Shown piece after piece: positions 9,908 through 59,077 of a DNA stretch of 64,000 nucleotides. The stretch comes from Delftia tsuruhatensis NBRC 16741. Its GTDB lineage: Bacteria; Pseudomonadota; Gammaproteobacteria; Burkholderiales; Burkholderiaceae_C. Location of the stretch: assembly GCF_001571325.1 (NCBI RefSeq), contig NZ_BCTO01000031.1:1-64000 (forward strand). The letters run 5' to 3'. Position 1 is the first letter of the stretch. Every line of letters begins with the position of its first letter. A model generated the notes under the pieces. The model did no database searches. It was given only the letters and a program-made list of their open reading frames with translations, and was not told the DNA's origin. The translations under genes were made by a program, and so were the position numbers.

Positions 9908-11065
9908 TCAGGCAGCCACCAAGGCTGCTGCCGCCTCGGTCTGCTTGACGCGGCGCTGCAGCACGGCGTCGGACAGCTCGGCCAGCGTGGCCAGGGAATC
10001 ATCCCAGCCCAGGCAGGCGTCGGTAATGCTCTGGCCGTAGGTCAGGGCAGCCACTTCGTCCTTGCCGGGCGTGAACTTCTGGGCGCCGCCCACGAGATGG
10101 CCTTCGATCATCACGCCGAACACGCTGCGCGAGCCGCCGCTGATCTGTCCGGCGATGTCGCGGGCCACGTCCTTCTGGCGCTCATGCTGCTTGGAGCTGT
10201 TGGCGTGACTGCAGTCGACCATCAGCGTGGGCGTCAGGCCCGCCTTTTCGAGGTCCTCGCAGGCAGCGGCCACGTTGGCGGCGTCGTAGTTGGGAGTCTT
10301 GCCGCCGCGCAGGATGACGTGGCAATCCTGGTTGCCCGCCGTGTTCACGATGGCAACCTGGCCATTCTTGTGCACCGACAGGAAGTGGTGGCCACGGCTG
10401 GCCGACTGGATGGCGTCGGTGGCGATGCGGATGTTGCCGTCCGTGCCGTTCTTGAAGCCGATGGGCGCCGAGATGCCCGAGGCCAGTTCACGGTGGACCT
10501 GGCTTTCCGTGGTGCGCGCACCGATGGCGCCCCAGCTGATCAGATCGGCGATGTACTGGGGAGAGATCACGTCCAGGAACTCGCTGGCGGCCGGCACGCC
10601 CAGGCGGTTGATGTCGATCAGCAGTTGCCGCGCAATGCGCAGGCCCTCGTCGATGCGGTAGCTCTGGTCCAGGTAGGGATCGTTGATCAGCCCCTTCCAG
10701 CCCACGGTGGTGCGCGGCTTTTCGAAGTACACGCGCATCACGATCTCCAGCGTGTCCTTGTACTGCTCGCGTATGGGCGCCAGGCGGCGCGCGTACTCGA
10801 TGGCGGCCGCCGGATCGTGGATGGAGCAGGGGCCGACGATGACCAGCAGGCGGTCATCCTCGCCAGCCATGATGTTGTGGATGGTGCGGCGGGTATCGCC
10901 GATCAGGGTTTCGACGGCCGTACCGCGGATGGGGAAGAAGCGAATGAGGTGCTCGGGAGGGGGCAACACGGTGATGTCCTTGATACGTGCGTCGTCGGTT
11001 TGGCCAGTCTTTTGGGAACCGCCGCGATACCAGGAATCGGCGAGGGAAGCTTGATGAGCAGTCAT
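9908..11065 (-). CDS. aroG: 3-deoxy-7-phosphoheptulonate (DAHP) synthase, class I
   Basis: A 385-aa type I-alpha DAHP synthase, which condenses erythrose-4-phosphate and PEP at the entry of the shikimate pathway. Visible motifs are VGPCSIHDP (77-85), the substrate loop YFEKPRTTVGWKGLINDP (113-130) and DCSHANSSKQHERQ near the C-terminus. Which aromatic amino acid inhibits it cannot be read from sequence, so the symbol aroG is a default among aroF/aroG/aroH. The start at 11065 (MTAHQASL) is used; no strong Shine-Dalgarno is visible. Upstream lies an aromatic leader peptide and terminator at 11124-11254, which indicates control by attenuation. aroE is elsewhere in the window. Confidence 0.96.
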   Translation of the reverse strand: MTAHQASLADSWYRGGSQKTGQTDDARIKDITVLPPPEHLIRFFPIRGTAVETLIGDTRRTIHNIMAGEDDRLLVIVGPCSIHDPAAAIEYARRLAPIREQYKDTLEIVMRVYFEKPRTTVGWKGLINDPYLDQSYRIDEGLRIARQLLIDINRLGVPAASEFLDVISPQYIADLISWGAIGARTTESQVHRELASGISAPIGFKNGTDGNIRIATDAIQSASRGHHFLSVHKNGQVAIVNTAGNQDCHVILRGGKTPNYDAANVAAACEDLEKAGLTPTLMVDCSHANSSKQHERQKDVARDIAGQISGGSRSVFGVMIEGHLVGGAQKFTPGKDEVAALTYGQSITDACLGWDDSLATLAELSDAVLQRRVKQTEAAAALVAA

Positions 11066-11123
11066 TGCTTGCTTTCGTGAGGAAAGATGGATCGTGGAAA
11101 ACGGAGCGAAGAATCGGGAGGGG

Positions 11124-11162
11124 AAAAACAAAAAACCGCCGGGCTCTGCAGCTTCGGCGGTT
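11124..11162 (-). terminator. Attenuator terminator upstream of aroG
   Basis: On the minus strand, AACCGCCG (11155-11162), a 13-base loop, then CGGCGGTT (11134-11141) running into T6-G-T5. It lies between the leader peptide stop (11192) and the aroG start (11065), not at a gene end. The segment CCCGGCGG of its 3' arm also occurs inside the leader peptide codons (11203-11210), where it can pair with the same 5' arm as an antiterminator. Confidence 0.85.
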
Positions 11163-11191
11163 CTGAGGGAGGTTTGTTCGGGTGCGCGCGC

Positions 11192-11254
11192 TTACCTCTC
11201 TTCCGCCGGGGAGGAGAACCAAAAGTAAAAGTAGAAGGAGGTACGGGCTTGCAT
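11192..11254 (-). CDS. Aromatic attenuator leader peptide of aroG
   Basis: A 20-codon open frame that reads M-Q-A-R-T-S, then FYFYFWF, then SSPAEER and TAA. Seven aromatic codons in a row (Phe, Tyr, Phe, Tyr, Phe, Trp, Phe) are the hallmark of a leader peptide that senses charged tRNAs. A ribosome stalled at the Tyr/Phe/Trp codons would leave the following CCCGGCGG (11203-11210) free to pair with the terminator 5' arm, letting RNA polymerase continue into aroG. Completion to the stop would cover it and allow termination. A second in-frame ATG at 11278 would give 28 codons. No clear Shine-Dalgarno precedes either start. The mechanism is inferred from layout. Confidence 0.8.
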   Translation of the reverse strand: MQARTSFYFYFWFSSPAEER

Positions 11255-11262
11255 GGGAACTG

Positions 11263-11292
11263 AATGTAGCACAGTCATTTTTCGCAGTGCAA
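11263..11292 (-). promoter_or_regulatory. Candidate sigma70 promoter of the aroG leader
   Basis: Minus strand: -35 TTGCAC (11287-11292), 18-base spacer, extended -10 TGC-TACATT (11263-11268). Initiation would fall just before the leader ATG at 11254, giving a very short or leaderless start; another promoter further upstream in the AT-rich stretch 11300-11440 is possible. Confidence 0.45.
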
Positions 11293-11506
11293 CATGGCCA
11301 TGGCAGCACGGGGGGCGCACTTCACAGTGCCACAGAGAGAAACCTCAAAATCATCCACGCACTTAAACTGCTTTTTTAACCGTTCAACGCAAAAATATTT
11401 CGTCATCACGGATAAAAACACGATGGCATGCAGTTTTCTTGCATTCACCTTTGAAAACGTGCAAACCCCAGAAAATGACGCTTCCGCGCATCGCGGCAGG
11501 CCCGCC

Positions 11507-12127
11507 TCAACGCCGCAGCAAGGAGTCGCGCAGCCTGCGCAGTGCTCGGCGCAGGGCGCTCCAGGGACGCCAGCGACGCGTCCGGTACCAAGGCTGCATT
11601 GCGGCGGCATCGAACCCGCCGGCCACAGCGGCGGATTCCGCAAACATGTCTATCAACAGGCATGCATCTCCCAGCAGGCGCCAGCCCAGACGCTCGCAGC
11701 GGCGGAAATGCTCGGGCTCCTGGGCATCGCCCACCAGCACGGACTGCTGCCAGGCGTGCACGACCTCCCTGAATCCCTTGAGCAGGCGCTGGTAGGCGGG
11801 AAATTCGTAGAGGGCGTGCCATACCGCCCCCAGCGTGGTGAGGAAGTGCTGGTGGTCCAGCACGGCCAGGTCGAGTTGCTGTATGGCCTCTTCCACGGCA
11901 GGGCGTGCACTGCCCGCATAGCGCACGCGCACGGCCTCGTCCAACGCAACGGCCAGCAAGGCCAGTTGCTGGTGCATGGGCTGCAGGTCGCCCACGATCA
12001 ACTCGTTCAGCCAGACGCGGTTCAGCCGCGACTCGCCGGCCCAGGTGCGCCAGTGTTCCGGCAGGCTGCGCAGGGGATGGGCAGAAGTCTGCAGGCCTGG
12101 CCGGGAAGGAAAGGAAAGCTGGGTCAT
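11507..12127 (-). CDS. Conserved hypothetical protein, 206 aa
   Basis: Function not recognised. The protein starts MTQLSFPSRPG and is Leu/Ala/Trp-rich and mainly helical in appearance, with several conserved-looking Trp and His residues (HWRTWAGE, LDHQHFLTTLGAVWHALYEFP). It has an Arg-rich C-terminus. No signal peptide; one moderately hydrophobic stretch near LLGDACLLIDMFAESAAVAGG is too polar for a sure span. It lies 97 bases after tldD on the same strand and may be co-transcribed with it. The start at 12127 is preferred over an upstream Met at 12217 that would almost touch the tldD stop. Confidence 0.7.
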   Translation of the reverse strand: MTQLSFPSRPGLQTSAHPLRSLPEHWRTWAGESRLNRVWLNELIVGDLQPMHQQLALLAVALDEAVRVRYAGSARPAVEEAIQQLDLAVLDHQHFLTTLGAVWHALYEFPAYQRLLKGFREVVHAWQQSVLVGDAQEPEHFRRCERLGWRLLGDACLLIDMFAESAAVAGGFDAAAMQPWYRTRRWRPWSALRRALRRLRDSLLRR

Positions 12128-12224
12128 GGAATCGGCGCCGGGCGGCGCCCACGGAGCGCGGCGGGCCGCGTCAGGCAGGACAGAGGACCCGCCCCCTGCC
12201 ATGCAGGGCGCGGGCATGCGACGG

Positions 12225-13685
12225 TCAGGCCGTGCCGCCCACCGTCAGGCCGTCGATGCGCAGCGTAGGCTGACCCACGCCCACGGGCACGCTCTGGCCT
12301 TCCTTGCCGCAGGTGCCCACACCGCTGTCCAGGCGCATGTCGTTGCCGATCATGGTGATGTGCTTGAGCGATTCCGGGCCGCTGCCCACGATGGTCGCGC
12401 CCTTGACGGGGTACTGGATCTTGCCGTTCTCGACCCAATAGGCCTCGCTGGCAGAGAACACGAACTTGCCGCTGGTGATGTCGACCTGACCGCCGCCGAA
12501 GTTGGTGGCGTACAGGCCCTTCTTGATCGAGGCCACGATTTCCTGCGGATCCTTGTCGCCACCTAGCATGTAGGTGTTGGTCATGCGCGGCATGGGGATG
12601 TGGGCATAGCTTTCGCGGCGGCCGTTGCCCGTGGGCTTGACGCCCATCAGGCGGGCGTTCATTGCGTCCTGGATGTAGCCCTTGAGGATGCCGTCCTCGA
12701 TCAGCACATTGCTCTGGCTGGTGCAGCCCTCGTCATCGACGTTGAGCGAACCGCGGCGATCGGCCAGCGTGCCGTCGTCCAGCACGGTGACGCCCTTGGC
12801 CGCCACGCGCTGGCCGATGCGGCCGCTGAAGGCGCTGGCGCCCTTGCGGTTGAAGTCGCCTTCCAGGCCGTGGCCCACGGCTTCGTGCAGCAGCACGCCG
12901 GGCCAGCCGGGGCCAAGCACCACGGTCATTTCGCCTGCCGGCGCGGGGCGCGACTGCAGGTTGGTGAGGGCCGCGCTCACGGCTTCGTCCACATATTGCG
13001 TGATCTGCTCATCGCTGAAATAGGCCAGGCCAAAACGGCCACCACCGCCGGCCGAACCCACTTCGCGCCGGCCCTTTTGCTCGGCGATCACGGTGACGGA
13101 AAGACGCACCAGCGGCCGCACATCGGCAGCCAACGTGCCATCGGCGCGGGCGACCAGCACCACGTCGTACTCGCTGGCCAGGCCGGCCATGACCTGGACG
13201 ACACGCGGGTCCTTGGCGCGGGCCAGGGTTTCGACCTTGCCCAGCAGCTCGACCTTGGCCGTGCTGTCCAGCGTGGCAATGGGATCCAGCCCCGGATACA
13301 GCGAGCGGCTTTGCGCGATCTTGGACGCGTTGGCGCGCACGCGCTTGCTCTGGGCCGCGCCCGAGATGGAGCGCACGGTGCGTGCCGCATCCAGCAGGGA
13401 GGCTTCGGAAATATCGTCGGAATAGGCAAAGGCCGTCTTCTCGCCGCTGACCGCCCGCACGCCCACACCCTGGTCGATGCTGAAGCTGCCGGTCTTGACG
13501 ATGCCCTCTTCCAGGCTCCAGCCTTCGGCGCGGGTGTACTGGAAGTAGAGGTCGGCGTCGTCGACCTGGTGGCTGCGGATCTCGGCCAGTGCGCGCGCGA
13601 GATGGGTTTCATCGAGCCCGAAGGGCTCAAGCAGCAACTGGCGCGCTGTGGCCAGGCGTTCAATGGTGGGTTCGCGGGAGATCAT
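12225..13685 (-). CDS. tldD: Metalloprotease TldD
   Basis: A 486-aa TldD/PmbA-family protein. The zinc motif is HEAVGH (267-272), followed by GLEGDFNRKGASAF, and the C-terminal half has the family DEGCTSQSN and NFGGGQVDITSG-type stretches. TldD pairs with TldE (PmbA) to form a protease that degrades unfolded peptides and processes modified peptides such as microcin B17 and CcdA (family knowledge). tldE is not in the window. Length is normal; the start at 13685 (MISREPTIERL) fits. The gene runs leftward into the 206-aa unknown. Confidence 0.96.
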   Translation of the reverse strand: MISREPTIERLATARQLLLEPFGLDETHLARALAEIRSHQVDDADLYFQYTRAEGWSLEEGIVKTGSFSIDQGVGVRAVSGEKTAFAYSDDISEASLLDAARTVRSISGAAQSKRVRANASKIAQSRSLYPGLDPIATLDSTAKVELLGKVETLARAKDPRVVQVMAGLASEYDVVLVARADGTLAADVRPLVRLSVTVIAEQKGRREVGSAGGGGRFGLAYFSDEQITQYVDEAVSAALTNLQSRPAPAGEMTVVLGPGWPGVLLHEAVGHGLEGDFNRKGASAFSGRIGQRVAAKGVTVLDDGTLADRRGSLNVDDEGCTSQSNVLIEDGILKGYIQDAMNARLMGVKPTGNGRRESYAHIPMPRMTNTYMLGGDKDPQEIVASIKKGLYATNFGGGQVDITSGKFVFSASEAYWVENGKIQYPVKGATIVGSGPESLKHITMIGNDMRLDSGVGTCGKEGQSVPVGVGQPTLRIDGLTVGGTA

Positions 13686-58644: not shown

Positions 58645-59077
58645 GTGTGAAGCGCGCCGATAAGCCGGATTCTGTGCACGCGGTTGCCCGCATGTGACCG
58701 CCATTAATCTGGGCCGGGCGTCGCCGCCCGGCTCGGTGCTACCTACCCGCACACTCCGGGGGCCCCGTCAACGTGTGCCTACTTGGTATTGCTGCGCGTA
58801 GAGATTGCCCGTTTCACCCGGGGACGCGTTCCGCGTCCCCGGGTGGCTATGGGGCCCAGGCTTTCGCCTGGGCGTCTGGCTTGCGCCATCCGTCGCCAGC
58901 TTGCGCTGGCACCCCATAGAACACCAAGTTGGCGGCACATGTCCCCGACTCGTCTCTGTTGCTCTGATCCTCACCTCACGGTGGACAGCCGTTAGCTGCT
59001 ACGCTGCCCTGTGCAGTCCGGACGTTCCTCCAGTGCCGTGTTTCCACGATTGCACCAGCGGCGGTCTGGCGTGCTTC
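58645..59077 (-). ncRNA. rnpB: RNase P RNA (M1, type A)
   Basis: On the minus strand the 5' end GAAGCACGCCAGACCGCC and the 3' end ATCGGCGCGCTTCAC form helix P1, as in E. coli M1 RNA. The conserved core GAGGAACGTCCGGACTGCACAGGGCAG (split by eye into the P4/CR-I region) and CR elements AGAGCAACAGAGA, GGGTGAAACGG, CAATACCAAGTAGG and ACAGAATCCGGCTTATCGG are all visible. It is the catalytic RNA that trims tRNA 5' ends. About 433 bases; ends are set by comparison with E. coli and may be a few bases off. Confidence 0.93.

Follow-up and report, generated by a model that had tools for sequence, protein, structure and literature searches.

The aroG gene of Delftia tsuruhatensis NBRC 16741 encodes a DAHP synthase, the first enzyme of the shikimate pathway, and the DNA in front of it raises the question of whether this gene is controlled by the supply of the pathway's aromatic end products. 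A first-pass annotation of the window (i.e., the whole stretch of 64,000 nucleotides analysed here, from a genome of 6.6 Mb) claimed the full set of parts for ribosome-mediated attenuation, which is a classical mechanism. That claim was supported by our analysis: a conserved leader, a terminator and competing, partner-specific pairings were found, and they suggest that aroG is very probably controlled by ribosome-mediated attenuation of transcription, of the type seen at trpL and pheL.

Parts of the element in front of aroG

The features of the locus, in the direction of transcription, are as follows.

11263-11292, minus strand: candidate promoter, extended -10 GTGC-TACATT and weak -35 TTGCAC with a spacer of 18, from direct sequence reading
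11254-11256, minus strand: start of transcription as predicted from the position of the -10, 0-2 nt upstream of the leader ATG
11192-11254, minus strand: leader ORF MQARTSFYFYFWFSSPAEER*, 20 codons, DNA ATGCAAGCCCGTACCTCCTTCTACTTTTACTTTTGGTTCTCCTCCCCGGCGGAAGAGAGGTAA, from direct sequence reading and conservation
11212-11254, minus strand: segment 1, the leader 5' of segment 2, predicted by folding and the swap test to pair with segment 2 (e.g., CCUCCUUCU with GGAAGAGAGG)
11194-11211, minus strand: segment 2, antiterminator 5' arm CCCCGGCGG-AAGAGAGGU, in the last leader codons
11155-11173, minus strand: segment 3, ACCUCCCUCAGAACCGCCG, common to the antiterminator (2:3) and the terminator (3:4)
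11130-11143, minus strand: segment 4 and U-run, CCCGGCGGUUUUUU, the terminator 3' arm
9908-11065, minus strand: aroG, class I DAHP synthase of 385 amino acids, the gene under proposed control

The 20-codon frame that had been claimed is present at 11254-11192 of the minus strand, between aroG (start at 11065) and a 236-amino-acid ORF (11507-12217) that is itself downstream of tldD. Its DNA reads ATGCAAGCC...AGGTAA, and seven consecutive aromatic codons (11236-11216) spell FYFYFWF, a run of pathway end-product codons that is kept in the family orthologues with upstream DNA. The leader has a maximum of 7 aromatic residues per 8, and every other frame among the 582 short ATG frames of the window has 4 or fewer; thus, with no second frame as dense in aromatic codons, the leader is not a product of chance.

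Between the leader ORF and the structural gene lies a strong intrinsic terminator, AACCGCCG-AAGCTGCAGAGCC-CGGCGGTTTTTT, at about 11163-11130 of the minus strand, with its U-run ending near 11130. The claim that its 5' arm has two possible partners was confirmed, since the 3' arm CCCGGCGG (11143-11136) recurs unchanged at leader bases 11210-11203 and either copy can pair with CCGCCG of the 5' arm.

The proposed promoter site is likewise present, with TACATT at 11268-11263, extended by TGC, and TTGCAC at 11292-11287, although a generic sigma-70 scan scored no promoter at 11292-11263. The lack of a clear ribosome site on a near-leaderless mRNA, which had been raised as a doubt, turned out to be a conserved feature of homologous leaders: a TANNNT -10 box ends 6-9 nt upstream of the leader ATG in 115/130 and is rare at other offsets, and a Shine-Dalgarno-like tetramer occurs in just one of the 130. 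This spacing, together with the near absence of Shine-Dalgarno-like sequences, indicates that the leader is very probably leaderless, and to judge from the sequence, the mRNA should start within about 2 nt of the leader AUG. Leaderless starts are known for trpL of Sinorhizobium meliloti (PMC7298713) and for some small transcripts of Corynebacterium glutamicum (PMC4046766). Burkholderia cenocepacia also has leaderless transcripts (PMC4603805), and its transcriptomes, as presented in two papers, contain 82 short 5'UTRs in addition, some of them from attenuation (PMC4603805, PMC5688073).

The aroG product shares 98-99% identity with sequences from Delftia acidovorans. Elsewhere in the genome (G000:C72:8400-9452) lies another DAHP synthase gene, 55% identical to aroG, and the element does not precede it. 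Upstream of aroG, tldD lies at 12225-13685 of the minus strand, as it does in many relatives; the tldD-aroG order also occurs in families without the attenuator, so this gene order is independent of the element. The window also carries a bacterial RNase P RNA of class A at 58645-59077 of the minus strand (193 bits).

Conservation in Comamonadaceae and distribution across the order

Every one of the 107 Comamonadaceae aroG orthologue loci whose upstream DNA is long enough shows the layout of aromatic leader plus terminator, two loci on truncated contigs being left aside. These leaders have a dense Phe/Tyr/Trp run, mostly YFWF or FYFWF, followed by the terminator. With a covariance model (R1) built from 58 sequences, the element was detected in 147 of the 151 family genomes (132 of the 134 of good quality), with one strong copy in each genome that has it.

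Two patterns of change show what is being kept. In homologous leaders, codon positions 1-2 of the YFW motif are invariant, and the third base of the Tyr codon is C in 73 cases and T in 39; because such third-base changes are silent, the leader is probably translated. The C-terminal leader codons, on the other hand, shift frame between genera (SSPAEER vs SVPGG) and the DNA CCGGCGGAtGAGAGG is retained. The GGCGG core of segment 2, and likewise CCGGCGG, is kept across lineages despite the frame difference (PAEER vs PGG). Since the frame shifts while the DNA stays, the RNA, and not the end of the peptide, is under constraint.

In a model search of 300 genomes of the order, 84 matched, a few of them with weak, terminator-only matches. 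A further 17 order-level matches were read, and each of them lies upstream of the DAHP synthase gene aroG. Counted by family labels, the order has at least 14 families with the element in this position; related aroG leaders in other families include MSQRFYFFFYFWSYLSHRRAK, MLRTAPYFFWFWYPTLLAAGRK and MTQASNRGFTARFYFYFYGFPMPLAEEGLRAY. Among 147 leaders that were read, 123 contain Phe, Tyr and Trp, 21 contain Phe and Tyr, two contain Phe only, and one contains Phe and Trp. Some other families are without the element, and no such ORF was found in their aroG upstream regions. The aromatic short ORF and terminator that the first-pass annotation had proposed to look for in relatives are therefore conserved throughout the Comamonadaceae orthologues that have upstream DNA, and many further families of the order share them.

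Genome size offers two side observations. A genome of the order of only 1.2 Mb retains the aromatic leader MAAKLYFYFFANLKLAEGDGC before aroG (L203, G379:C1:90721-90856:-). Two genomes of 1.7-1.9 Mb (L117 and L118, family f31) have an aroG 72-73% identical with no leader and a short gap after tldD; other f31 genomes retain the aromatic leader.

Weak second matches of the model were either bare terminators or weak full-length matches, mostly unread. Among three weak full-length matches that were read, two proved to be leucine leaders before leuA (L195 and L197), and the third (L196) was without a clear leader of this kind. Leaders with a run of Leu codons before leuA (2-isopropylmalate synthase) thus came to light as MNRISLALILLLPPGRSW (L195, G262:C1:1776972-1777106:-), MNFNFSSTLLLLLPANGQQFFCI (L197, G178:C24:298555-298702:+) and MRVFPLAHLLLNLNTMSNGQER (L227), and all three have the same near-leaderless -10/ATG spacing and a terminator. 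Most leuA genes that were read in the genus to which the window belongs are without such a leader. In these bacteria, attenuation on leaderless mRNAs may be a general style.

Competing pairings and the proposed mechanism

Alternative pairings were examined in relatives, as the first-pass annotation had advised, and they are kept there. RNAalifold on the family alignment showed the terminator alone and next to no covariation, as the GGCGG/CCGCC core hardly varies. Since RNAalifold is uninformative on an invariant core, partner-swap tests were used, in which cognate partners were compared with swapped and shuffled ones in 48 dissimilar representatives. In the outer antiterminator helix (segment 2b:3a), cognate partners paired better than swapped ones (z -4.0, p 0.00025, a p-value that overstates the evidence because the tested leaders are related and phylogenetically non-independent), and native pairs were better than shuffled in 94%. 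The 5' part of the leader was also specific for its own segment 2 (z -4.4 for cognate vs swapped; native better than shuffled in 88%), with the same overstatement through kinship, so a protector pairing with segment 2 is supported for the 5' leader as a whole. The 22 nt adjoining segment 2, taken alone, paired with it no better than shuffled or swapped sequences, and the control pair, segment 1:3a, had no significant effect in the swap test.

A single column co-changes across segments 2, 3 and 4. Directly after CCGCC, segment 3 has G or A with few exceptions; its counterpart in segment 4 is C in 119 of 120 sequences with G and T in 25 of 26 with A. Segment 2 follows more loosely (G goes with 79 C and 16 T, A with 4 C and 16 T). 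These pairing and partner-swap tests support, on computational grounds, an antiterminator that competes with the terminator and would be freed by a paused ribosome.

Folding gave a consistent picture. When a ribosome edge was simulated immediately upstream of segment 2 and segment 4 had yet to be made, 2:3 formed in 129 of the 130 leaders modelled, which is for the most part a consequence of the invariant complementarity between GGCGG and CCGCC. A ribosome on the stop codon covered segment 2, and the 3:4 core then formed in 130/130; it formed in 128/130 of the free RNAs. At equilibrium, the completed RNA favours the terminator even with a stalled ribosome; the terminator being the more stable structure on the full RNA, the switch must be kinetic, i.e., decided during transcription.

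From the parts that are observed (leader, terminator, alternative pairings, conservation and geometry), we infer where transcription starts, where the ribosome pauses and which amino acids are sensed. The transcript would begin on the leader AUG or immediately beside it, with a ribosome loading on its leaderless 5' end. When charged tRNA-Phe, -Tyr or -Trp runs low, this ribosome would pause at Y-F-W-F, 11-21 nt before segment 2, and mask segment 1, with segment 2 (CCGGCGG-AAGAGAGG) left free. Segment 2 would then pair with segment 3 (CCUCC...CCGCCG) before segment 4 exists, no terminator would form, and aroG would be transcribed. When all three are plentiful, the ribosome would reach the stop codon and cover segment 2, the 3:4 terminator would form, and transcription would stop before aroG. 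Without a masking ribosome, segment 1 would pair with segment 2.

The geometry fits this proposal. The edge of the ribosome footprint lies about 13-14 nt beyond the first base of the A-site codon. In nearly all Trp-bearing leaders, 14-21 nt separate the start of the last Trp codon from the segment 2 core, and the aromatic codons keep a near-fixed distance to it, the last of them typically lying 11-15 nt upstream. A ribosome paused on Y-F-W would, we infer, mask segment 1 and just free segment 2. As the Phe, Tyr and Trp codons cluster where a paused ribosome masks segment 1 and not segment 2, a single leaderless attenuator might integrate all three aromatic supplies in OR fashion at the pathway entry and stand in for TyrR/TrpR control, a reading to which we give a little less than an even chance.

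Three-way sensing of Phe, Tyr and Trp is thus plausible from the sequence, and the main competing explanation concerns its breadth. A true attenuator could effectively sense one or two amino acids (e.g., Phe, or Phe and Trp), the other aromatic codons being present since all such codons are U-rich and suit the RNA. We hold this to be a realistic possibility, although one that falls somewhat short of an even chance. Trp is missing in 21 of the 147 leaders and two have Phe only, and a pause at early codons would leave segment 1 uncovered. As PMC11802643 presents it, moreover, the Phe-Tyr-Phe leader of C. glutamicum aroR responds to Phe, yet Tyr supply has no effect despite its Tyr codons. Retention of all three residues in 123/147 leaders speaks for the wider reading, as do the Trp distance already given and the presence of all three within the action window of a paused ribosome in 78/130.

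Two further explanations depart from attenuation in cis, and both are less probable. A role in trans, additional or even predominant, for the terminated leader RNA or its peptide, like that of rnTrpL/peTrpL in S. meliloti, we consider improbable; a leaderless attenuator RNA with a conserved hydrophobic peptide does resemble rnTrpL, which starts at the trpL ATG (PMC7298713), but no target is known, and the C-terminus of the peptide varies (PAEER, PGG, PGGREASA) where the RNA is kept, a pattern that speaks against selection acting there on the peptide. Less probable still is a constitutive terminator with a chance aromatic ORF, aroG being served by another promoter and the element being non-regulatory. 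Conservation across the order, partner-specific pairing, silent third-base changes, the fixed promoter spacing and the uniqueness of the frame in the window all stand against it. Attenuation governed by the aromatic leader accordingly remains the preferred reading.

Related systems and significance

The element resembles the enterobacterial trpL/pheL leaders (trpEDCBA, pheA, pheST) in its alternative pairings, its end-product codons just before segment 2 and its intrinsic terminator. Those leaders, whose shared features are described in part in PMC11802643, differ in responding to a single amino acid, in having a Shine-Dalgarno sequence and in their target genes. By analogy of layout, the nearest described case is aroR-aroF of C. 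glutamicum, in which a Phe-Tyr-Phe leader peptide precedes a DAHP synthase gene under ribosome-mediated attenuation (Neshat et al. 2014, as cited in PMC11802643; PMC4046766). The likeness is of layout only: C. glutamicum belongs to an unrelated phylum, its aromatic run is shorter, and the motif reported is without Trp. As in rnTrpL/peTrpL of S. meliloti, the 5' end of the attenuator mRNA coincides with the leader peptide AUG (here by prediction), but the S. meliloti system has Trp only, belongs to the trpE(G) operon and has described trans functions (PMC7298713). Attenuation at a proteobacterial DAHP synthase gene has also been predicted for DAHP synthase-tyrA operons of Vibrio (Merino database, as listed in PMC1173090); these are Gammaproteobacteria, the operon includes tyrA, and the cases are predictions only.

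No described attenuator of this exact type for aroG in Comamonadaceae was known to the first-pass annotation, and we found none for aroG in Burkholderiales in the main texts of open-access papers. The table in PMC1173090, which covers tyrA-linked operons only, has no betaproteobacterial aroG attenuator. A regulon survey of Proteobacteria treats TyrR/TrpR and attenuation and names no leader peptide (PMC5343134). The main texts of a premature-terminator survey (PMC2965389) and of the B. cenocepacia transcriptome papers (PMC4603805, PMC5688073) do not name aroG. A search against Rfam matched no leader family anywhere in the window at the gathering score, and within 11060-11400 there was still none with the threshold relaxed to E 10. 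The aroG attenuator of Burkholderiales therefore seems undescribed, and an earlier mention is possible.

The element offers a specific mechanism for how Burkholderiales and their relatives set shikimate flux, and covariance model R1 is a ready Rfam-type family. It is also a naturally occurring example of attenuation on an mRNA that is probably leaderless, with initiation, pausing and folding all proceeding from the 5' end, and would aid the engineering of aromatic production in these hosts. In Escherichia coli, TyrR and TrpR act as repressors of two DAHP synthase genes, aroF and aroH (PMC11802643). If the three-way reading is true, an OR-type attenuator would replace such separate TyrR/TrpR control of DAHP synthase across much of the order.
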